Positions 1-9,573 of a stretch of DNA of 33,387 nt are shown in pieces. The stretch is from an uncultured Actinomycetes bacterium (lineage in GTDB: Bacteria; Actinomycetota; Acidimicrobiia; Acidimicrobiales; MedAcidi-G1). Below the pieces are notes generated by a model. It was not told the origin of the DNA. It was given only the letters and a program-made list of their open reading frames with translations, and did no database searches. Location of the stretch: positions 1-33,387 of the forward strand of contig CAJXEU010000001.1 in assembly GCA_913052525.1 (NCBI GenBank), given 5' to 3'. Position numbers and translations under genes: made by a program. Numbering within the stretch: the first letter of the stretch is position 1; each line of letters begins with the position of its first letter.

Positions 1-944
1 ACAGAGTATTTGACGCAATCGTCGAAGCATCTAAACAAGTGGGAATTCGCTTGTTCCTATCTCGTGGTTCGATGGATCTAGGGGAAAGTAAAGGCGGTCT
101 ACCACCAGATCGGGTGGTAGAAGATAGAGATTCAATACTCTCTTCAACAAAAGCTATTGCAGAACGCCACCATGACGGAGACATGATTCATGTAGTAGTA
201 GCTCCATGTAGCCCTTTTTCAGTTACAACAGAATTGATGGTTGAATCAGCAGAACTAGCTCGTGAACTAGGGCTACGCTTACACACTCACCTCTGTGAAA
301 CACCTGAAGAACAGCAGCACTGCTTAGAACGATTTGGTCGTCGACCAGTTGAGATGCTTGACGAATGGGGCTGGGTCGGTAGCGATGTTTGGTTGGCTCA
401 CGGGATACATATAGATGATGCAGAGATGAAAGTTCTTGGTTCAGCTGGAACAGGCGTAGCTCACTGCCCCTCTTCAAATGCCCGCATTGCTGCAGGCATG
501 TGCAGAGTAACTGATCTGATAAAAGCTGGAATTCCGGTTGGGTTAGGCGTAGATGGAGTCGCTTCAAATGAAGTCGGAGGTTTATTCCCTGAACTGCGCC
601 AAGCGCTTTACACTGCTCGCCTGCGAGAAATGCGTCCAGATGCACTCATGCCGGAAGAAGTGTTAAAAATCGCGACACAAGGAGGATCTCAATGCTTAGG
701 AATGTACAACTCTGGATCTTTGGAGATAGGACAAAACGCTGACATTGCGGTATGGCCAGGCAGCGATCTAGAAGATATTCGAAATCCCATAGACGGTCTC
801 ATTCTTGGACCTGACCGTCGCGCAAAACATGTTTTGGTAAAAGGAAATTTGATTGTCAAAGATGGTCAAGTTCTTGGAACAGACTTAGCTAAAGCTCATC
901 AAGACTTGGCTAAACATGCACGTAGAATCTGGAAGCACGACTAA
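1..944 (+). CDS. Amidohydrolase, guanine/8-oxoguanine deaminase-like (5' end outside window)
   Basis: The reading frame is open from the first bases, so the gene starts upstream; roughly the first third of a family member of about 450 residues is missing, including the N-terminal HxH metal site. Visible metal-dependent hydrolase motifs are L-H-T-H-L-C-E (about nt 279-299), W-L-A-H-G (about 393-407), A-H-C-P-S-S-N-A-R (about 459-485) and G-L-G-V-D-G (about 543-560), which supply the later His ligands and the catalytic Asp. The surrounding sequence resembles 8-oxoguanine deaminase, SsnA and hydroxyatrazine hydrolase, all of which remove an amino group from a purine- or triazine-like ring. The downstream BMP importer supports a heterocycle-use role. 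Class is confident; the exact substrate is inference. Confidence 0.8.
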   Translation, partial: RVFDAIVEASKQVGIRLFLSRGSMDLGESKGGLPPDRVVEDRDSILSSTKAIAERHHDGDMIHVVVAPCSPFSVTTELMVESAELARELGLRLHTHLCETPEEQQHCLERFGRRPVEMLDEWGWVGSDVWLAHGIHIDDAEMKVLGSAGTGVAHCPSSNARIAAGMCRVTDLIKAGIPVGLGVDGVASNEVGGLFPELRQALYTARLREMRPDALMPEEVLKIATQGGSQCLGMYNSGSLEIGQNADIAVWPGSDLEDIRNPIDGLILGPDRRAKHVLVKGNLIVKDGQVLGTDLAKAHQDLAKHARRIWKHD

Positions 945-981
945 TCACCTGTTCTCCAAAAAAATAAGCCATTATATAGAA

Positions 982-1212
982 GTGATCACTGCCGAATTTA
1001 CCGTAGAACCTTTCGTAGAAGGATCACCGGGACCTCATGTTCAAGCCGCTATTCAGATCGCAGAAGAAGCAGGGCTAAAAGTGGAAATTGGACCATTTGG
1101 TAATTCAATTACAGGAGACCCAAACATTATTTTGCCTTTAATTAGTTCAATGTTGAGCGCTGCAGTGGACAACGGAGCAACACGAATTTCATTGCAGGTA
1201 ACTCAGGTTTAA
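982..1212 (+). CDS. Thiamine-binding-like small protein (UPF0045/MTH1187/YkoF type)
   Basis: This 76-residue protein begins M-I-T-A-E-F-T-V-E-P and contains G-P-H-V near residue 18 and G-x-S-I-T-G-D near residue 43, the pattern of the small ferredoxin-fold MTH1187/YkoF family, whose members bind thiamine or related ligands. I chose the GTG at 982 because family members start at this point. An ATG at 916 in the same frame would add 22 unrelated residues and overlap the preceding gene by 29 nt. No good ribosome site precedes either start, so translation may be coupled to the upstream gene. It sits between the amidohydrolase and the importer and could bind their shared ligand (inference). Confidence 0.7.
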   Translation: MITAEFTVEPFVEGSPGPHVQAAIQIAEEAGLKVEIGPFGNSITGDPNIILPLISSMLSAAVDNGATRISLQVTQV

Positions 1213-1307: not shown

Positions 1308-1331
1308 ATGTTGAGCAGAGGGAGAAAATAA
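1308..1331 (+). CDS. Possible leader peptide MLSRGRK before the BMP lipoprotein
   Basis: The ORF reads ATG TTG AGC AGA GGG AGA AAA TAA. Its ATG lies 8 nt after a TANNNT hexamer, as for a leaderless start, and its TAA shares one base with the lipoprotein ATG (TAATG). The Shine-Dalgarno-like GAGGGAG of the lipoprotein lies inside this ORF, so ribosomes reading it would pass over that site. There is no evidence of expression, and seven codons can occur by chance. Confidence 0.35.
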   Translation: MLSRGRK

Positions 1332-2416
1332 TGAGACGTCGTCTACTGGCGCTGTTAGCCGTTGTCCTTACCTTTGGAGCTGTGGCTTCAGCTTGTGGTT
1401 CGGATGATGATGGTAGCAGTGACGTAAAGGCAGCATTTGTTTACATCGGTACACCTGGTGATGCTGGGTGGACCTATGCACATGATCAAGGCCGTATAGC
1501 GGCTGAAGAAGCAACAGGAGCAACTACAGCAGTTGTTGAGAATGTTCCTGAAGGAACAGAAGATTTCGCTAACTATGCTCGCGAATTCATCGATGATGGG
1601 TATTCAATAATCATTGGTACGTCATTTGGATATATGGAGTCAATGGCAGCATTGGCAGACGAGTACCCAGACGTTGCATTTGACCATATTTCTGGTTACA
1701 TGAGCAATGACACCAACTTTGGTAATACTTTTGGGCGGATGTATGAGCCGCGTTATCTATCAGGAATGGTTGCCGGTGCTATGACCGAAAGTAATCACCT
1801 CGGTTACGTTGCAGCGTTCCCAATTCCTGAAGTTATTCGTGGAATCAATGCTTTCACTCTTGGTGTACGGTCAATGAACCCAGATGCCGAGGTTGAAGTG
1901 ATTTGGACCAGCACTTGGTTTGACCCAGCAGTTGAAGGCGACTCTGCGCAAGCCCTAATTGAAAAGGGTGCAGACGTTATAGCCATGCATCAAGACAGTA
2001 CCGCAGCAGGCGAAAGAGCTGAGGCGGCAGGCGTTCGATGGGTTGCCTACAACTCTGACATGAGTGCTTTTGCACCAAATGCTCACCTGACTGCTCCGGT
2101 TTGGGATTGGTCCAACCGTTATGCTCAGCTTATTGAGCAAGCCGCAGATGGAACTTATTCCGGCGGATCATGGTGGGGATCAATGGCTGACGGAGTTGTA
2201 GCTTTAGCTCCGATCGCTGATGATGTTCCTGGTGATGTACAAGCAGCAGTAGCAGACTCGCAACAAGCCATCATTGATGGAGAACTCCATGTATTTGCTG
2301 GACCTATTAATGCTCAAGACGGCAGTGTTCTAGTTGCTGCTGGAGAGACAATGAGTGACGGCGACATGCTCGGCATGATGAGCTTCGTTGAAGGCGTAAT
2401 TGGATCAACAGGCTGA
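1331..2416 (+). CDS. BMP-family ABC transporter substrate-binding lipoprotein
   Basis: A 361-residue exported lipoprotein. A basic start (MRRR), a hydrophobic stretch (about 5-20) and A-S-A-C22 form a signal peptide with a lipobox, followed by an acidic Gly/Ser-rich tether. The mature part has the Bmp/PnrA layout: F-V-Y-I-G-T-P-G-D-A-G-W-T near 36, G-T-S-F-G-Y near 94 and F-G-R-M-Y-E-P-R-Y-L-S-G near 133. Characterised relatives bind purine nucleosides; a few bind other ligands. It is the first gene of a four-gene importer operon and has a good GGGAG ribosome site 7 nt before the ATG. The ligand is not proven; a purine-type compound is likely given the upstream deaminase-like gene. Confidence 0.9.
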   Translation: MRRRLLALLAVVLTFGAVASACGSDDDGSSDVKAAFVYIGTPGDAGWTYAHDQGRIAAEEATGATTAVVENVPEGTEDFANYAREFIDDGYSIIIGTSFGYMESMAALADEYPDVAFDHISGYMSNDTNFGNTFGRMYEPRYLSGMVAGAMTESNHLGYVAAFPIPEVIRGINAFTLGVRSMNPDAEVEVIWTSTWFDPAVEGDSAQALIEKGADVIAMHQDSTAAGERAEAAGVRWVAYNSDMSAFAPNAHLTAPVWDWSNRYAQLIEQAADGTYSGGSWWGSMADGVVALAPIADDVPGDVQAAVADSQQAIIDGELHVFAGPINAQDGSVLVAAGETMSDGDMLGMMSFVEGVIGSTG

Positions 2417-2469: not shown

Positions 2470-2500
2470 TAGCGCGTCTACACGGTAAATTAATTTGATT

Positions 2501-4015
2501 ATGACTTCTGATTCCCCACTAGCTATCGAGTTAGTTGACATTTGGAAACGTTTCCCCGGTGTGGTTGCTAATGCGGGGGCCACTTTGAGTGTCAAAAAAG
2601 GAACGATACACGCTGTACTTGGTGAAAATGGAGCTGGAAAATCAACCTTAATGAATATTCTTTCTGGGGTTTACAGACCAGACGAAGGTCAAGTACGCAT
2701 CAATGGAGAGCAACACTGGTTTCATTCTCCTTCAGATGCCTTAGCTTCTGGTATTGGCATGGTTCATCAAGAATTCCGACTGGTTCCTTCATTCACAGTC
2801 GCCGAAAATATCGTTCTTGGCGCCTCAGAGAAAATTATTAGACGGAGTTTCATTGAGAAAGAAGTAGAGCAAATAGCCCAACAATTTGGACTTGCTATAG
2901 ATCCAACACGACCTGTATGGCAGCTCTCAATGGGAGAACGACAGCGCGTAGAGATTCTCAAAACATTATGGCGGAAAGCGCAGATACTAATTCTGGATGA
3001 ACCAACAGCAGTATTAACTCCTGCAGAGGCAGACGAACTTGGAAATGTCTTGCGAAAAATAGCTGAAGATGGTCGAACAGTTGTATTTATAAGCCATAAA
3101 TTACATGAAGTTACCGCTTTCTGCGATGAAGCAACAGTGCTCCGCGGAGGTAAAACAGTTGCTTCCTCTTTGAAAGTAGAAGAAGTAAATGAAAGTGATT
3201 TAGCCGGCCTCATGGTCGGTTCATCGCCCATGATTAGCGAGAGGCCTCCTTATCAAGAACCAGGTGAGGCGATGCTGACTATAGAAGGACTTGGAACGCT
3301 AGACGATAGATTCCTTCCCGCCGTAAAAAATCTGAATTTGACGATAAAAAGTGGCGAAATAGTAGGTATCGCCGGAGTTTCTGGCAATGGTCAACGAGAA
3401 ATGGCCCAAGCTATAGCTGGCTTAAGGCCAATTACATCAGGAAAAGTGACTATCTCCGGTAAAGATCTTACAAATGCTCCGCCCTCAGAACGCTTCACTG
3501 CAGGGCTTGGTTATGTTCCTGAAGACCGGCTAGGAGTAGGACTGGCTCCTCGCTTAACCGTCACTGAAAATGCAATTTTACGAAGCTACAAAAATTTAAG
3601 GAAAAGCATTTTTCTTGTTTCTGAACAGGCAGTGAACTATTGCAAAGAAATAATTGAACGATTTGGAGTAAGAACCGGACCGATAGATGAACCAATAGCT
3701 GGTCTATCAGGCGGAAACCTTCAAAGACTTTTAGTTGGTAGAGAGTTAAGCGGGAACCCAAAAGTAGTCCTAGCGGCACAACCTACTCGGGGATTAGACA
3801 TACAAGGTGTGAAAGCAATTCAAGACTTGCTTATAGATGAACGCACCGAAGGAGCAGCAGTACTTTTGATTTCTGAAGATCTCGATGAATTGCTTACACT
3901 TTCTGACCGATTACTAGTCATGCACGAGGGAGAAATAGTAAAAGAATTTGATCCTACGACCGCCCATCGGCACGATATCGGAGCAGCGATGGCAGGCAAA
4001 AGAGACGAATCATGA
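2501..4015 (+). CDS. BMP-type ABC transporter ATP-binding protein (two ATPase domains)
   Basis: About 504 residues with two ABC domains in tandem, as in NupO/YufO and sugar-type importers. Domain 1 has Walker A G-E-N-G-A-G-K-S-T (41-49), signature L-S-M-G-E-R and Walker B with L-D-E-P-T. Domain 2 has the degenerate G-V-S-G-N-G-Q-R-E in place of a P-loop lysine, signature L-S-G-G-N and A-A-Q-P-T-R-G-L-D, where Gln replaces the catalytic Glu; relatives share this asymmetry. It should energise uptake of the lipoprotein's ligand from the cytoplasmic face. An ATG at 2501 is preferred; an in-frame TTG at 2495 is possible, and neither has a clear ribosome site. The stop overlaps the next start by 4 nt. 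Confidence 0.9.
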   Translation: MTSDSPLAIELVDIWKRFPGVVANAGATLSVKKGTIHAVLGENGAGKSTLMNILSGVYRPDEGQVRINGEQHWFHSPSDALASGIGMVHQEFRLVPSFTVAENIVLGASEKIIRRSFIEKEVEQIAQQFGLAIDPTRPVWQLSMGERQRVEILKTLWRKAQILILDEPTAVLTPAEADELGNVLRKIAEDGRTVVFISHKLHEVTAFCDEATVLRGGKTVASSLKVEEVNESDLAGLMVGSSPMISERPPYQEPGEAMLTIEGLGTLDDRFLPAVKNLNLTIKSGEIVGIAGVSGNGQREMAQAIAGLRPITSGKVTISGKDLTNAPPSERFTAGLGYVPEDRLGVGLAPRLTVTENAILRSYKNLRKSIFLVSEQAVNYCKEIIERFGVRTGPIDEPIAGLSGGNLQRLLVGRELSGNPKVVLAAQPTRGLDIQGVKAIQDLLIDERTEGAAVLLISEDLDELLTLSDRLLVMHEGEIVKEFDPTTAHRHDIGAAMAGKRDES

Positions 4016-5088
4016 AACGTCTAGTACTGGTTCGCCGGGAACAACCACTCCGAGGAGGGCAACCTCTTTCATTCTTAATCGGCCTAGTAGTTGCCTTACT
4101 GGCAGGGATACTGCTACTGGTTGCTTCCGGCCATAATCCAATTGAAATCTATGAACGACTATTCAACTCTTCCGTAGGCAGTTCCAATGCATGGGCTAAA
4201 ACACTCAATCGTGCAGTTCCTCTTGGACTGGCAGGGCTCGCCGTTGCAGTCGCTGGAAGCATGGGGCTATGGAATATTGGCGCTGAAGGTCAAATTCTTG
4301 CTGGAGCAATGATGGCAGCTTGGATAGCGCAAATAGGTGAAGGATGGGCTAGCCCGTTACTGATTCCATTGATGCTCATCGCTTCCATTCTTGGGGGGGC
4401 GTTACTTGCATCTGGACCTGGTATTGCCCGAGCTCAGATCGGTGTAAATGAAATCATTACAACACTTATGCTCAATGAAGTCGCATTAAGGCTTTTACAG
4501 TGGCTCATACACGGACCTTGGAAAGATCCTGAATCTCGAGGGTTTCCATTAGCACCATTACTTGCAGATGAAGCACGGCTACCTAAACTCTTCGGAAGAG
4601 CTCATTGGGGCGTAATTATTGCTTTTTTAGTCATAGCATTTTTTGGATTTATAGTTAGTCGCACAACCTGGGGATACGAGCTAAAAGTTGCAGGCTCCTC
4701 AGGAGCAACCGCCCGCTATGCCGGTATTTCTTTAAATAAAAAAATCATCACAGTTATGGTGCTAAGCGGAGGCATAGCAGGCTTAGCAGGCGGAATTGAA
4801 TTATCAGGAACTTCAGACAGGATTGTTGAAGGAGTATCAGGAGGCTACGGATTTGCTGGGATCATTGTTGCAGCACTTGCGTTAATGCGGCCCTCAGGAG
4901 TCGCTGCAGTTGCCCTTATCTTTGGTGCAGTGCAAGTCGGAGGTTTAAGCATCCAAACTCTAGGAGTCTCATCTTCTGTATCCACTATCCTTCAGGCTCT
5001 TATTCTCTTTGGAGCAATCGGAGCTGGAGTTTTCAATCGGTATAGCTTGAAAAGCGTAAAACGTGAGAAGAAAGGCGGCTCGACATGA
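4012..5088 (+). CDS. BMP-type ABC transporter permease, first subunit
   Basis: A 358-residue polytopic membrane protein of the BPD_transp_2 group (NupP/YufP-like). Hydrophobic segments begin near residue 22 and continue throughout. G-L-W-N-I-G-A-E-G-Q near 86-95 and G-V-N-E-I-I-T-T-L-M-L-N near 144-155 are typical of this permease type. It should form the membrane channel with the next gene product. The ATG overlaps the ATPase stop (ATGA), indicating translational coupling. The C-terminal tail is short and basic. Confidence 0.88.
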   Translation: MKRLVLVRREQPLRGGQPLSFLIGLVVALLAGILLLVASGHNPIEIYERLFNSSVGSSNAWAKTLNRAVPLGLAGLAVAVAGSMGLWNIGAEGQILAGAMMAAWIAQIGEGWASPLLIPLMLIASILGGALLASGPGIARAQIGVNEIITTLMLNEVALRLLQWLIHGPWKDPESRGFPLAPLLADEARLPKLFGRAHWGVIIAFLVIAFFGFIVSRTTWGYELKVAGSSGATARYAGISLNKKIITVMVLSGGIAGLAGGIELSGTSDRIVEGVSGGYGFAGIIVAALALMRPSGVAAVALIFGAVQVGGLSIQTLGVSSSVSTILQALILFGAIGAGVFNRYSLKSVKREKKGGST

Positions 5089-6017
5089 ATGAAGCATCAA
5101 TGATTGGAATGCTTAGCACCACGGTCTCATTCGGCGCCCTTTTATACCTTGCATGCATAGGAGAACTTATCTCTGAAAAAGCCGGAGTCTTAAATCTAGG
5201 AGTAGAAGGAATGATGGCGCTAGGCGCGGTAACAGGATTTCTGGTTGCTCTCAATACCGAAAACCCTTGGTTGGCCTTACTCGTCGCAATGATCGTCACT
5301 GCTGCATTCGCTTCAATCCACGGAATATTTACCGTCGTGCTAGGGGCGGAACAGGTTGTCTCAGGCTTATCACTTACTTTCTTAGGTTTAGGACTCTCCG
5401 CATTTTTTGGCAAGAGTGCTGTTGGTAACCCACCAGGAGCAATACTTTCAAATGTCGATTGGGGGCCACTCTCGGACATACCTTGGGTTGGACCGATTCT
5501 TTTCCAGCAGTCACCAATGGTTTATTTCGCAATTCTTGTTGGGCTTCTAACTTCATTCTTGCTAACTCGCACCAGCATCGGCCTAGCTCTTCGTGGGGCA
5601 GGAGAATCTGCTTCGACTGTAGATACAGCAGGCTACTCAGTAGTTAAAATACGACTCGCAGCAGTTGCCACTGGCGGAGCTTTAGCAGGCGCAGCAGGCG
5701 CGTATTTGACTTTAAGTATTACTACCTCATGGCAAGACGGTGCTACTGCGGGACGAGGCTGGATTGCTGTAGCACTGGTCATCTTTGGAGCTTGGAAACC
5801 AGGGCGGGCGGCAATAGGGGCTCTCTTATTTGGCGGATTACTAGCGCTTAAGACACGCTTGCAAACATTCGGAGTTAATTTCTCACCAATCCTGCTCTCA
5901 ATGATTCCCTATCTGCTGACCATTGGAGTGCTCCTAATCATCTCCATTAGAGCACGACACCGCCCATCAGCTTCACCCTCTGAAATCGGAAAGGTTTATC
6001 GGCGGGAAGAAAGGTAA
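5085..6017 (+). CDS. BMP-type ABC transporter permease, second subunit
   Basis: A 310-residue polytopic membrane protein of the NupQ/YufQ type. The diagnostic sequence is G-E-L-I-S-E-K-A-G-V-L-N-L-G-V-E-G-M-M near residues 26-44, followed by A-E-Q-V-V-S-G-L near 87. It overlaps the preceding permease by 4 nt (ATGA) and completes the importer. The stop is only 6 nt from the stop of the convergent PLP-enzyme gene, with no terminator hairpin visible between them. Confidence 0.88.
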   Translation: MNEASMIGMLSTTVSFGALLYLACIGELISEKAGVLNLGVEGMMALGAVTGFLVALNTENPWLALLVAMIVTAAFASIHGIFTVVLGAEQVVSGLSLTFLGLGLSAFFGKSAVGNPPGAILSNVDWGPLSDIPWVGPILFQQSPMVYFAILVGLLTSFLLTRTSIGLALRGAGESASTVDTAGYSVVKIRLAAVATGGALAGAAGAYLTLSITTSWQDGATAGRGWIAVALVIFGAWKPGRAAIGALLFGGLLALKTRLQTFGVNFSPILLSMIPYLLTIGVLLIISIRARHRPSASPSEIGKVYRREER

Positions 6018-6023
6018 AGGGCT

Positions 6024-7232
6024 TTATCGCTCAACTCCAGTTACAAGAGCAGCAACAGCAGAATCGGGACTCAAAGTACCTTCTTCATGGGAAGCAAGTA
6101 TGCCGGCGAATCCTGAAGTACCAGTAATACACGGAGAAATACTGGTATGACCATGAACGAGTTCATGTGCTTTAAGTAAAGTTTCTTCGTTCACACTCAT
6201 AGGCCTACTCCCCATCTCCAATAGTGCCCATACGATCGGTTTCCAGTCATATACAACATCATCAAGAATTCCGGTAGCGACTGAATTCGGATTTTCCCAA
6301 GCCCACATTGGTTCATCACCATCCAAGCTTTCAAATGGGTTCACAGAAGAAGACACAATGTCAAAAGCTCTACTTAAAGGAGAACACCCCTCAGATTGGA
6401 CGCTATGCAGTACAGGTAGCTGTTCCAGAACACCCAGGTTCAAAGAGGTGTACAAGGCTTGGATCACACTGGAAGCAAGAGCTCCACCACCGACTTGAAT
6501 AAAAAGATGCTCAGGAGTTTTTTGAGTACCTATCCAAGCATCAACTAGCTCAAAACCTAAAGTACGTCCACCATCAATTGTGAAAATATTTTCTGTTCCT
6601 TGACACCCAAAAGAAATAGCGCCTTCCGCTACTGCTTCTTGTGACCTAAGAACGCAAGGGTCGCCTTCTTCATTTTCTTTCCGCTCACAAATACGTATAT
6701 CTGCATCCAAGTTGGAAAGATGATCAAGAATTGAAGTGTCCGCCCAGACCGGAACATGAACAATTAAAGGCCGGTTAACCGCTCGAGCCACTACAGCTGC
6801 TCCAAGGGCAGCATTGCCACATGACGCTATTGATAGAGGGGTGGTTAATGGAACTTCATCTACCTCAAGGTGAAGAGCCAACCCAAACAAGTGCCGTGCT
6901 TTATGACTTCCTGAAACATTCTCAGTTTCATTCTTAATCCAAAGATCGCCTGTTCTGCCAATAGCGGAACTTAAGTCAGAACAATTTTCAAAAGGCGTTT
7001 GACTAAACCCTGTTCCATCAACTTCACCAATTGAATTATCTAACCGGTTAACCAACTGGATGAAATCTCTGTCGGTGAAACCTTTTTCAACAGCATTCTT
7101 GTACGACCATAAAAAACTTCGAAATCTTATGAAAGGGTTCTGTTGCTCAGATGATGCTTCTAGTTCCGCAGCAGGCCATAGAGCACCGGCAGGAGAACCC
7201 AGCCACCCATGGTTTTGAGATAACGAAGTCAT
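6024..7232 (-). CDS. PLP-dependent enzyme, fold type II (threonine dehydratase/synthase-like)
   Basis: A 402-residue protein of the tryptophan-synthase-beta superfamily. S-G-S-H-K111-A-R-H supplies the PLP lysine, S-C-G-N-A (137-141) the substrate/cofactor loop, T-L-G-F-E the later conserved Glu region and V-G-G-G-A-L (247-252) the phosphate loop. This supports an amino-acid lyase, deaminase or beta-replacement reaction, but I cannot name the substrate. The N-terminal 80 residues have no motif I know. It overlaps the upstream PLP gene by 4 nt, so the two should be translated together. Threonine synthase proper is less likely because the usual N-terminal motifs are absent. Confidence 0.78.
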   Translation of the reverse strand: MTSLSQNHGWLGSPAGALWPAAELEASSEQQNPFIRFRSFLWSYKNAVEKGFTDRDFIQLVNRLDNSIGEVDGTGFSQTPFENCSDLSSAIGRTGDLWIKNETENVSGSHKARHLFGLALHLEVDEVPLTTPLSIASCGNAALGAAVVARAVNRPLIVHVPVWADTSILDHLSNLDADIRICERKENEEGDPCVLRSQEAVAEGAISFGCQGTENIFTIDGGRTLGFELVDAWIGTQKTPEHLFIQVGGGALASSVIQALYTSLNLGVLEQLPVLHSVQSEGCSPLSRAFDIVSSSVNPFESLDGDEPMWAWENPNSVATGILDDVVYDWKPIVWALLEMGSRPMSVNEETLLKAHELVHGHTSISPCITGTSGFAGILASHEEGTLSPDSAVAALVTGVER

Positions 7233-8794
7233 CTACCAGCTAGCACTCCCGTTTGGTCATTGAATTCTTGAATCAATTCATCCCACGCAGGAGCCAAAGT
7301 CTGCAAATGTTGCCAAACATGTTGATCCCGACGTATTTCAAAATCAGAAAATTCAATTCCTTGTTGCTCTACCCATGTGTAATAACCAAGATTAAATATA
7401 CGATTCTTACCGGTTTCGTCAAGAACCTCAACGTCGTTAGTGTCTGCTCCTTGTAGATGCTCTTCAATAGCAGCTGAAGCATCCTCTGAACTAAAACCAT
7501 TCACATAACGACTTACAGCCATTACCTCACGTTCACTGGCATACAATTCCGCACCATCAGTAGCAACCGTTACGATTGCATCGTCAGAACCGAGGCCAAG
7601 CGATTTCGCAGTTTTAATAGCCGCTAAAACATTGCAAATACTAGATAAACCAAAATGACCGAGTTGACTAACAACTGAAGGATCAATCCCTAAGTCAGTG
7701 AGATGGGAGAGCCCTTCCGGTGAGTTGAACACAACCCCAAGTTCATCACAAGCCCGATCGCTTACTCCGACAATCACATCAGTATTTGTCACATTATGAA
7801 TCAATGGAATGTGCTTGTCTCCAATACCTTGAATGTTGTGCTCTCCGAAACCGTTGTACAACATGGTCGGGCATTCCAGAGCTTCAACAGCTACTATTCG
7901 GGCACCATATTCCGCTTTAAGACGCTCACCGGCCGCTAATGTTCCCGCAGATCCGGAAGCAGCAACAAATGCTGAGAGTTTCAAACCAGGATGACTTTCT
8001 GCCAGATTCAAATACAAGTGTTCAAGAGCACGACCAGTGACTTCATGATGACCAATATGATTGGAAAATTCAGAGAACTGATTGAGAATGAAATTGCCAG
8101 AATCTTTTTCAAGCTCGTTACAGGCATCATAAATTTCTTTCACGTTGCTTTCAGAGCCAGTGGTTTTTATCACATCTTCTGGGTCAGCTATCCACTCATC
8201 AAGCCATTCAAATCGTTCCCTGCTCATATTCTCTGGAAGAACAGCGACCCCTCGACAACCCATCAACCGAGAAATAGCTACACCTCCACGAGCGTAATTT
8301 CCAGTTGAAGGCCATATCGCTCTATGGGCGGTTGGATCATATTGCCCAGTTACCACTCGTGGAACTAAACAGGAATAAGCAGCCAAGACTTTATGGGCAC
8401 CAATCATTGGGAAACGATTACCAAATGCAACAATAATAGGGGAGTCCACACCCGTCATTTCACTAGTCAGAACCACATGGTCTGGAATGTCAACAAATCC
8501 ACCATGAAAATCGTTATACCAATGGACTCGGTAGAGATTCAAAGGATCAGCAGCATCGCGATCTATCTCACTGAGGTCTGAGCGTATTGAATCAGAAATT
8601 TTATTTGGGTCAGCTAGTTGAGAGAAAGTAGGTAAAGCGATTCCGCGTTCTCTGAATCTTTCAACACTGCGTTGGTATCGCTGGTCGTCAACGATTTCGG
8701 TAAAGAGGCCAAAATGGGCTAAATCAAAGGATTGTGGATCAAAGGTAGGAACTTCAAAAGAACCCACGCCAACATTTGTGCTACCACTATTCAT
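7229..8794 (-). CDS. PLP-dependent enzyme, cysteine synthase/CBS-like, with long N-terminal extension
   Basis: A 521-residue fold-type II PLP enzyme, much longer than the roughly 310 residues of cysteine synthase. I-G-A-H-K135-V supplies the probable PLP lysine, P-S-T-G-N-Y (162-167) the Asn loop, S-G-S-A-G-T (280-285) the phosphate loop, I-Q-G-I-G (321-325) the stretch seen in O-acetylserine sulfhydrylases, and V-T-V-A-T-D-G-A-E-L-Y the C-terminal cofactor edge. The first 115 residues and the last 80 or so lie outside the core. The substrate is unknown. It leads the two-gene PLP operon and has a TAACCT hexamer 7 nt before the ATG with no ribosome site, suggesting a leaderless mRNA. Confidence 0.78.
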   Translation of the reverse strand: MNSGSTNVGVGSFEVPTFDPQSFDLAHFGLFTEIVDDQRYQRSVERFRERGIALPTFSQLADPNKISDSIRSDLSEIDRDAADPLNLYRVHWYNDFHGGFVDIPDHVVLTSEMTGVDSPIIVAFGNRFPMIGAHKVLAAYSCLVPRVVTGQYDPTAHRAIWPSTGNYARGGVAISRLMGCRGVAVLPENMSRERFEWLDEWIADPEDVIKTTGSESNVKEIYDACNELEKDSGNFILNQFSEFSNHIGHHEVTGRALEHLYLNLAESHPGLKLSAFVAASGSAGTLAAGERLKAEYGARIVAVEALECPTMLYNGFGEHNIQGIGDKHIPLIHNVTNTDVIVGVSDRACDELGVVFNSPEGLSHLTDLGIDPSVVSQLGHFGLSSICNVLAAIKTAKSLGLGSDDAIVTVATDGAELYASEREVMAVSRYVNGFSSEDASAAIEEHLQGADTNDVEVLDETGKNRIFNLGYYTWVEQQGIEFSDFEIRRDQHVWQHLQTLAPAWDELIQEFNDQTGVLAGR

Positions 8795-8928: not shown

Positions 8929-9573
8929 ATGGTCAGATGGATTACACAAGTGGTAACAAGCCTTCTCTTGGCTGCAGTTATTGGCTTGCTTATTTCTGGA
9001 ACAGCTGGAGATTCAGATAATCCAACAATTACGCAGTTAGTCATACCGTCTACTACAACTGTGGCTCCAGTTGAATCAACTTCTACTACAACTGAAACCC
9101 CTAATACCACTACAACGAGCACAACCACTACAACGAGTACAACTACTACAGCAGTTCCTGCTTCTACAACTACAACAGCGCCACCGATTGATGAAGAAGC
9201 GGTTTTATTGGCGTCATACCCTTGGGGTCCCAGCGACGAAGCAGTTGTCCTCCAGACAGTCCTCGGAGTAGAAGCTGATGGTTGGTATGGAGGAGGAACT
9301 CGTAACGCCCACTTAGCAGAACTTGAGGTACGGGGCCTAAGTGCATCGAATGTGCCTCCTGTACCAACTACGACAACCACAACGTCAACAACACCACCGC
9401 CAACAACGACTGTTGATTCAGGGCTTCCTGATCTTTCGTATCTACCTAGTTCAACTTTGCAAGCAGCAGCTACAGCATTTGGAGCTCCTTGTTTATCTGA
9501 CGGGATTTTGACAGATTGTCCGGCAAGTGTTCTAGCAAATATCGATGCTATTCTGGCGCTACTAGGAGTATGA
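8929..9573 (+). CDS. Secreted or membrane-anchored Thr-rich protein with peptidoglycan-binding-like segment
   Basis: A 214-residue protein. Residues 7-25 form a signal peptide or membrane anchor; no clean cleavage site is obvious. A Thr-rich stalk (41-83) leads to a segment containing V-L-Q-T-V-L-G-V-E-A-D-G-W-Y-G-G-G-T-R (107-125), which matches the core of PG_binding_1 repeats that grip peptidoglycan. A second Thr-rich stretch (147-161) leads to a tail with two cysteines (188, 197) that could form a disulfide. A wall-attached, probably O-glycosylated surface protein is my inference. No good ribosome site precedes the ATG. Confidence 0.65.
   Translation: MVRWITQVVTSLLLAAVIGLLISGTAGDSDNPTITQLVIPSTTTVAPVESTSTTTETPNTTTTSTTTTTSTTTTAVPASTTTTAPPIDEEAVLLASYPWGPSDEAVVLQTVLGVEADGWYGGGTRNAHLAELEVRGLSASNVPPVPTTTTTTSTTPPPTTTVDSGLPDLSYLPSSTLQAAATAFGAPCLSDGILTDCPASVLANIDAILALLGV
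9049..9177 (+). repeat. ACN-triplet-rich tract encoding Thr stalk
   Basis: Repeated ACA/ACT/ACG/ACC codons, including tandem ACAACCACTACAACGAGT-like units, encode residues 41-83 of the secreted protein. A shorter similar tract lies at 9367-9411. The repeats are imperfect at the DNA level. Confidence 0.7.

Follow-up and report, generated by a model that had tools for sequence, protein, structure and literature searches.

Results

An overlapping pair of PLP-dependent enzymes

The 33,387-nucleotide stretch of DNA that we analyzed (hereafter, the window) is the contig CAJXEU010000001.1 of an uncultured member of the Acidimicrobiales (assembly GCA_913052525.1). On its reverse strand it encodes two fold-type II enzymes that depend on pyridoxal phosphate (PLP). 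PLP1 (positions 7229..8794) has 521 amino acids, resembles cysteine synthase (CysK, or O-acetylserine sulfhydrylase), and has long N- and C-terminal extensions. PLP2 (6024..7232) has 402 amino acids, resembles threonine synthases and dehydratases, and is our proposed substitute for YgeX, the 2,3-diaminopropionate (DAP) ammonia-lyase of reductive urate degradation. The stop codon of PLP1 and the start codon of PLP2 overlap by 4 nucleotides (ATGA; 7229..7232, reverse strand). A sequence-only reading had described this overlapping pair, and we found both open reading frames (ORFs) at these positions. The true start of PLP1 may lie slightly downstream; the confidence of its structure model is low at residues 1-9.

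That reading placed neither protein in a named family, and profile searches agree. The only Pfam domain in each is the general PALP domain PF00291 (52.3 bits for PLP1 and 99.2 bits for PLP2), and neither reaches the cut-off of any NCBIfam family, with best scores about one-fifth of the cut-offs. The closest family for PLP1 is cysteine synthase (TIGR01139; 74.2 bits versus a cut-off of 350.95); its earlier label was elongated cysteine-synthase-like, and E. coli CysK has 323 amino acids. For PLP2, the closest family is threonine synthase (NF006050; 65.9 bits versus 303), with serine/threonine dehydratase next. Its earlier label, threonine-dehydratase-like, had the fold type right, but threonine-synthase-like is better. 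Against the YgeX model (TIGR03528), PLP2 scores 19.7 bits, far under the cut-off (532.25), and no match to PLP1 is listed; judging from these scores, neither protein is YgeX. Nor is PLP1 likely to be SbnA (29.8 bits versus 349.95). Neither OrtB nor the tryptophan synthase TrpB, two further candidates, appears in the match listings for PLP1, and no separate test was aimed at either. Sequence searches of the PDB lead from PLP1 to O-acetylserine sulfhydrylases and cysteine synthases and from PLP2 to threonine synthases, and two PDB profile searches gained no closer relative.

The structure models have mean pLDDT (predicted local distance difference test) scores of 90.7 (PLP1) and 94.1 (PLP2). According to VIA-align, the best solved match for PLP1 is an O-acetylserine sulfhydrylase/beta-cyanoalanine synthase (Z 33.4, 309 residues, 2.9 Å), with many others tied; O-ureido-L-serine synthase is also matched (Z 32), and Foldseek agrees with this placement. 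PLP2 is closest to threonine synthase (Z 38.2), followed by threonine deaminase (35.3) and DAP ammonia-lyase (5ygr; Z 34.1, 2.5 Å over 317 residues, which other fold-type II enzymes equal or better). Serine and aspartate racemases are among its matches as well (Z 33-35).

Both proteins look like active enzymes, because their presumed PLP lysines are invariant in alignments of 49 sequences (49/49 in each case). These are Lys135 of PLP1, in a GAHK motif (codon at 8390..8392, reverse strand), and Lys111 of PLP2, in GSHKARH (6900..6902, reverse strand). Gly165-Asn166 and Gln239-Phe240 of PLP1 are also invariant, and its PSTGN and QF motifs resemble those of E. coli CysK. Each protein has a conserved substitution. 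Where E. coli CysK has AGF, PLP1 has Asp326-Lys327-His328 (IQGIG-DKH; 7811..7819, reverse strand), in 120 of 120 PLP1 sequences. Aligned with YgeX, PLP2 has Cys138 in an SCGN loop (6819..6821, reverse strand) in place of the Asp of TDGN, in 113 of 113 PLP2 sequences. (Redundant loci are included in both counts.)

From the overlap, the sequence-only reading had also judged it likely that the two enzymes are made in equal amounts, and possible that they act in sequence or as a complex. The exact 4-nucleotide overlap is present in 15 of 100 same-strand pairs (with redundant loci counted and starts set by rule), and PLP1 and PLP2 are on different contigs in five genomes (G063, G074, G120, G121, and G122). 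With the genes unlinked in several genomes, equal amounts or a complex is unsupported; the two enzymes may act in sequence or side by side.

PLP1 is constant while its partner varies

Relatives of PLP1 and PLP2 (E = 1e-20 or better) are present in 64 and 61, respectively, of 119 related genomes. We also scanned a contig collection, in which at least 592 stretches matched a pattern and at least 584 were confirmed, and we studied the best 80 as loci. PLP2 adjoins PLP1 in 68 of the 80, and several of the other 12 stop at a contig edge. Given these counts, the pairing is not due to chance. By their record titles, the 80 loci are from Acidimicrobiia, other actinobacteria, Acidobacteria, Proteobacteria, and Gemmatimonadetes. 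(Simple ORF calls in these GC-rich loci gave false antisense genes, such as our cluster 18, which is antisense to PLP1. We discarded these and turned to tblastn searches with named reference proteins.)

We never found PLP2 without PLP1, whether among the 61 relatives (61/61) or in an even phylum-wide draw of 396 genomes (19/19). In that draw, 27 genomes have PLP1 and 8 of these lack PLP2; three of the eight have close orthologues of PLP1 (G339, G401, and G429), and the five others have relatives scoring 407-581 bits. Four of these five (G197, G436, G466, and G508) have a different pair, in which a protein that is 44-46% identical to PLP1 (PLP1B) is preceded by a threonine-synthase-like protein (PLP2B; the copies are 57-65% identical to that of G197). 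These loci (L180:7944-10663, L181:6788-9516, L182:6729-9470, and L183:5483-8195) have the reverse of the order in the window, and in G197 the two genes again overlap by 4 nucleotides. In three of the four genomes, the pair is accompanied by genes for SsnA, the F420 reductase, carbamoyltransferase, or 8-oxoguanine deaminase; in the fourth, the pair is near nitrilase-like and importer genes. Automatic annotation would hide this pair, as its threonine-synthase-like member passes a threonine synthase model (for G197, NCBIfam thrC at 195.8 bits versus a cut-off of 167.1).

In a tree with 42 rows, PLP1, PLP2A (the type in the window), PLP2B, and YgeX form one group each. PLP2A is on a long stem, and the E. 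coli outgroups are long-branched. PLP1 lies beside E. coli CysK and CysM (98/91 support), and the CysK-plus-PLP1 group excludes E. coli DsdA and DcyD (again with long branches), so we rejected D-serine dehydratase and D-cysteine desulfhydrase as identities for PLP1. Across genomes, PLP1 is the constant member and its partner is PLP2A, PLP2B, or YgeX. YgeX occurs without PLP1 in six families. We also note one PLP1 gene in a different context (L108:8001-12254). Its genome lacks both XdhD and PLP2, and the gene is followed by a pair of CoA-transferase genes and one of the luciferase family.

The grouping with CysK and CysM, together with PSTGN and QF motifs that are near to the forms in those enzymes, raises the question of whether PLP1 is a biosynthetic side branch, with DAP or aminoacrylate as the substrate of a beta-replacement that might, for instance, use sulfide and yield cysteine. 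This seems very unlikely to us, as the AGF loop of CysK is DKH in all 120 PLP1 sequences, and one would not expect PLP2 to always be accompanied by a dispensable branch.

The pair accompanies a probable reductive urate cluster

Li et al. 2025 (PMC12507026) describe how E. coli converts urate to yanthine (XdhD), reduces the ring (YgfK), and opens it (SsnA and HyuA). Two ureido groups are lost via YgeW or UacY, and YgeY, and DAP is converted to pyruvate by YgeX, which is equally active on L- and D-DAP and takes off both amino groups. In Chloroflexota, an F420 luciferase-family protein replaces YgfK.

At its left edge, the window encodes an amidohydrolase of the 8-oxoguanine deaminase type, of which the C-terminal two thirds are present (39..944, forward strand). 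The gene is truncated by the end of the contig, so the core genes of the cluster lie beyond the window, on separate contigs of the fragmented genome. In genomes of the same genus, such as G004, the region beyond the window's edge reads XdhA, HyuC-like, nitrilase-like, XdhD, SsnA, F420-family reductase, 8-oxoguanine deaminase, importer, and then the convergent PLP2-PLP1; two smaller subunit-like ORFs precede XdhA in G004. Judging from its genes, this continuation looks like a reductive urate cluster. The HyuC-like protein is similar to allantoate amidohydrolase and, with the nitrilase-like protein, gives two candidate carbamoylases. The full-length deaminase of G004 scores 537.9 bits (cut-off 532). 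XdhD scores 804.5 bits in G004 and 746.9 bits in the window's own genome (a partial match on another contig), versus the TIGR03311 cut-off of 830.45. SsnA is a short form in G004 (264.1 bits versus 444 for NF005540). A ring reductase is present: a protein of the F420-dependent luciferase-like monooxygenase family follows SsnA (L122, 15538-16539). The SsnA relatives beside XdhD in this taxonomic order (L122:14486-15505 and equivalents) are short. Their match to the model, which has 441 positions, spans roughly 57-340 and yields about half of the cut-off score, so surveys based on SsnA may miss this variant of the pathway.

Outside of the window's family, a frequent gene order is XdhD-like, SsnA-like, PLP1, PLP2. 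Some of these loci have YgeW-, YgeY-, YgfK-, or carbamate-kinase-like genes nearby and no YgeX, and HyuA is near PLP1 in G401, G429, G508, L076, and L079. In the flanks that we fetched for the 80 loci, many of which are short, an XdhD- or SsnA-like gene is found at 21, and most loci show neither beside the pair. Across whole genomes, XdhD is present in 21 of 23 further PLP1 genomes, which we hand-picked from the 80 loci. Of the 12 loci in which PLP2 does not adjoin PLP1, this choice covers 9 and leaves out L080, L093, and L100.

Some PLP1-type clusters also contain tandem carbamoyltransferase paralogues (the second is 28-34% identical to the first) and a carbamate kinase (L052:5678-8621, L070:3394-6303, L181:3915-6779, L182:3-2910, and L183:12028-14915). 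This arrangement suggests a further variant in which both ureido groups would be removed by phosphorolysis, which would save two carbamoyl phosphates (ATP) per urate.

PLP2 as a probable replacement for YgeX

We scored XdhD as present from 500 bits upward and YgeX above 150 bits (the next-best match scored 60); these thresholds were set after viewing the lists. Among 118 genomes, 71 have XdhD, 64 have PLP1, 61 have PLP2, and 11 have YgeX. We grouped the genomes into 59 families of the order, with the window's own family excluded, and treated families as independent. PLP2 or YgeX is present in 22 of 22 families with XdhD, versus 1 of 37 without it (Fisher p = 2.6e-15, which ignores kinship between families). 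The two lyases tend to replace each other: 12 of the 22 families have only PLP2, 8 have only YgeX, and 2 have both (p = 1.4e-4, also ignoring kinship). We also predicted that PLP1 genomes without PLP2 would encode YgeX, and among the 23 further genomes this held for 4 of 4 (G119, G123, G124, and G125), versus 2 of 19 with PLP2. (The combined test excludes G119, which probably duplicates G105.)

Operon position can be compared as well. In G065 the order is HyuC-nitrilase-XdhD-SsnA-reductase-YgeX, and G078 has the same order except that SsnA was not found; in G089 it is HyuC-reductase-nitrilase-XdhD-SsnA-PLP1-PLP2. Compared with their counterparts in the genus of the window, the genes that G065 and G078 share with it show 61-74% identity. 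These genomes bear on the idea that PLP1 acts upstream of DAP (it might, for instance, release urea from albizziin, or 3-ureidoalanine, by elimination), with PLP2 as the DAP lyase. CysK-like enzymes do use beta-substituted alanines, and O-ureido-L-serine synthase is among the fold matches of PLP1. Yet G065 and G078 have the same HyuC-like and nitrilase-like genes together with YgeX and need no PLP1, and in L079, L090, and Austwickia, PLP1 is found together with YgeY, an enzyme that can already process albizziin. We consider an upstream role to be unlikely. The coexistence with YgeY is also why we dropped the idea that PLP1 replaces YgeY.

The clearest case is Austwickia sp. (locus L104; genome G122), in whose cluster six proteins are over the cut-offs: YgfK 845.9, SsnA 549.1, HyuA 522.6, XdhD 1187.9, YgeY 582.1, and YgeW 713.1 bits. 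PLP2 follows carbamate kinase, with a 1-nucleotide stop/start overlap, within the ygeW-ygeY-yqeA run, and no YgeX is found in this genome at E = 1e-30. Because PLP2 occupies the place of YgeX in a cluster without YgeX, it appears to be the counterpart of YgeX. PLP1 is on a different contig in Austwickia, so its adjacency is common but not needed.

Could the cluster degrade another substrate, with the pair acting on another amino acid and the YgeX pattern a coincidence? XdhD and SsnA homologues in the order that fall under the curated cut-offs would fit this idea, as would PLP1 without XdhD in G123 and G124. But the Austwickia cluster is canonical at the level of the cut-offs and has PLP2 inside, and the family counts are 22/22 versus 1/37; we find this improbable. 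Another idea is that PLP1 is the DAP lyase and that PLP2 is accessory, such as a racemase. PLP1 is constant with PLP2A, PLP2B, or YgeX, and there are racemases among the fold matches of PLP2. However, it is PLP2, not PLP1, that is in the canonical Austwickia cluster and alternates with YgeX, and PLP1 coexists with YgeX; we doubt that the roles are swapped. Instead, this widespread, unassigned pair is likely to belong to the reductive route of urate degradation and to displace YgeX. The sequence-only reading had speculated about a link to YgeX and SsnA, which co-occurrence, displacement, and operon position now back.

An importer and a small protein near the pair

A BMP/PnrA-type importer is encoded on the forward strand: a substrate-binding protein (1331..2416; PF02608, 188 bits), an ATPase (2495..4015; PF00005), and two permeases (4012..5088 and 5085..6017; PF02653). 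The second permease gene ends at 6017 and PLP2 ends at 6024, so the importer and the pair are convergent and the importer is a neighbor rather than part of the same operon. As a neighbor, the importer is where the sequence-only reading put it, and it is beside the urate cluster in relatives as well. Outside of the family, BMP-type importer genes lie close to either the pair or the urate cluster in L091, G126, G197, and G466, and by the thresholds applied they do so in 5 of the 80 loci from the contig collection. A purine-class substrate for this importer is plausible.

Between the deaminase and the importer is a 98-amino-acid protein of a thiamine-binding family (916..1212; PF01910), which is kept in relatives (46-75% identical). 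On the other side, beside PLP1, is a 214-amino-acid protein that diverges from PLP1 in its orientation (8929-9573) and has no Pfam or NCBIfam match. It is conserved across the family, and many relatives keep only about 50 amino acids of it, at 70-82% identity.

Discussion

A proposed last step for reductive urate degradation

We propose that PLP1-PLP2 probably carries out the last step in a variant of the reductive pathway of urate (purine) degradation, with PLP2 as a non-orthologous DAP ammonia-lyase. The upstream genes, which are present in same-genus genomes and cut off in the window, would convert urate to yanthine, reduce the ring, open it, and remove both ureido groups to form DAP. PLP2 would then convert DAP to pyruvate and ammonia by a PLP-dependent beta-elimination via aminoacrylate, assisted by PLP1, with its CysK-like fold for beta-replacement or elimination and its DKH loop. 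PLP1 would handle the stereoisomer of DAP that PLP2 cannot use, as a racemase or as a second lyase. Because YgeX alone accepts both isomers, this is the most economical role for PLP1. The variable partner and the DKH and Cys138 substitutions fit this predicted division of labor, short of proof, and we offer it tentatively. What we observe directly are the sequences, the synteny, the patterns of co-occurrence and displacement, and the conserved lysines; the substrate, products, stereochemistry, and division of labor are predictions.

Several observations weigh against our proposal. First, homologues of XdhD and SsnA in this order mostly fall below the curated cut-offs: TIGR03311 is exceeded in 1 of 118 genomes (versus 13 of the 23 further PLP1 genomes) and NF005540 in 0 of 118. 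Residue E606, which Li et al. (PMC12507026) discuss for XdhD, sits in an insertion that is missing from all seven of the other aligned sequences, including two XdhA and the XdhD from Austwickia. It discriminates nothing in our alignment, so we dropped it as a marker for urate. For these two reasons, we can only infer that urate is the substrate. Second, HyuA is absent from L122 and L124, the same-genus stretches examined for it, though the search did not extend to whole genomes. Third, the Asp in the TDGN loop of YgeX has a catalytic role, and PLP2 lacks it; our literature search found nothing on the structure of YgeX. Fourth, four genomes have both PLP2 and YgeX (G071, G102, G126, and G139), and 3 of 71 genomes with XdhD have neither lyase: G011 and G033, which are 74% and 68% complete, and G040, whose PLP1 is cut at a contig end. 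Conversely, PLP1 occurs without XdhD, at the thresholds used, in G021 (78% complete), G123, and G124. Finally, PLP1 persists in genomes with YgeX (G096 and G105), which the stereoisomer idea explains poorly; in such genomes PLP1 may be a relic.

A broader hypothesis, which we put forward only as a possibility, is that stereo-complementary DAP modules of two enzymes (a DAP racemase or D-DAP lyase with the CysK fold and a DAP lyase with the threonine synthase fold) were assembled at least twice, as PLP1A-PLP2A and as the reversed PLP2B-PLP1B, and that they end an F420-run reductive urate pathway in bacteria from oxic sea, lake, and soil. The reductive route has been described as confined to anaerobes, and record titles (e.g., MedDCM) suggest that the hosts here live in oxic water. 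If our main proposal is correct, then the "anaerobic" route probably also operates in open-water bacteria, and the same logic is found in free-living Acidimicrobiia and in several other phyla with the last step replaced. It would also give functions to two widespread families of enzymes that lack a named family, and purines would be the probable substrate class of the BMP-type importer. Furthermore, annotation with PF00291 would blur the variant and YgeX models would miss it. Li et al. (PMC12507026) color YgeX in gene neighborhoods by PF00291, and because PLP1 and PLP2 carry this domain too, the coloring cannot separate YgeX from the pair. A paper on purines in the ocean (PMC11698098) covers, in the portion relevant here, urate oxidase and allantoin genes, and among the papers listed in our literature search, we saw none that names such a PLP pair in the reductive urate pathway. 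The pathway itself is known; what is new is the PLP pair as a proposed replacement for YgeX.

Comparison with known systems

Like YgeX from E. coli or C. difficile, PLP1 and PLP2 are fold-type II PLP enzymes with the same cluster partners, and PLP2 or PLP1-PLP2 shares the operon place of YgeX. Unlike YgeX, there are two enzymes rather than one, PLP2 is just 21% identical to YgeX over 214 amino acids, and it forms a separate clade. Also, the lysine motif of YgeX is FGLxxFKxLG and its loop is TDGN, whereas PLP2 has GSHKARH and SCGN.

Relative to the reductive uric acid cluster, as described in PMC12507026, the clusters here share XdhD, SsnA, the F420-type reductase (which is known there from Chloroflexota), and downstream hydrolases. 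They differ in the lyase, which PLP1 and PLP2 would replace, in the short SsnA, and in the apparent route of ureido-group removal, which relies either on HyuC/allantoate-amidohydrolase-like and nitrilase-like proteins or on tandem carbamoyltransferases. Also, record titles suggest that the hosts are from oxic water.

PLP1 shares with CysK (O-acetylserine sulfhydrylase) the fold (Z of about 33), the lysine, the S/T-G-N loop, the QF motif, and the phosphate loop, but PLP1 lacks the IQGIGAGF loop (with DKH for AGF), has a C-terminal extension with a TWVEQQG motif, and is 521 rather than 323 amino acids long. Similarly, PLP2 has the fold of threonine synthase and threonine dehydratase (Z of 38 and 35), but unlike threonine synthase, it is under the cut-off of NF006050, it lies on a long stem in the tree, and its occurrence is tied to XdhD.

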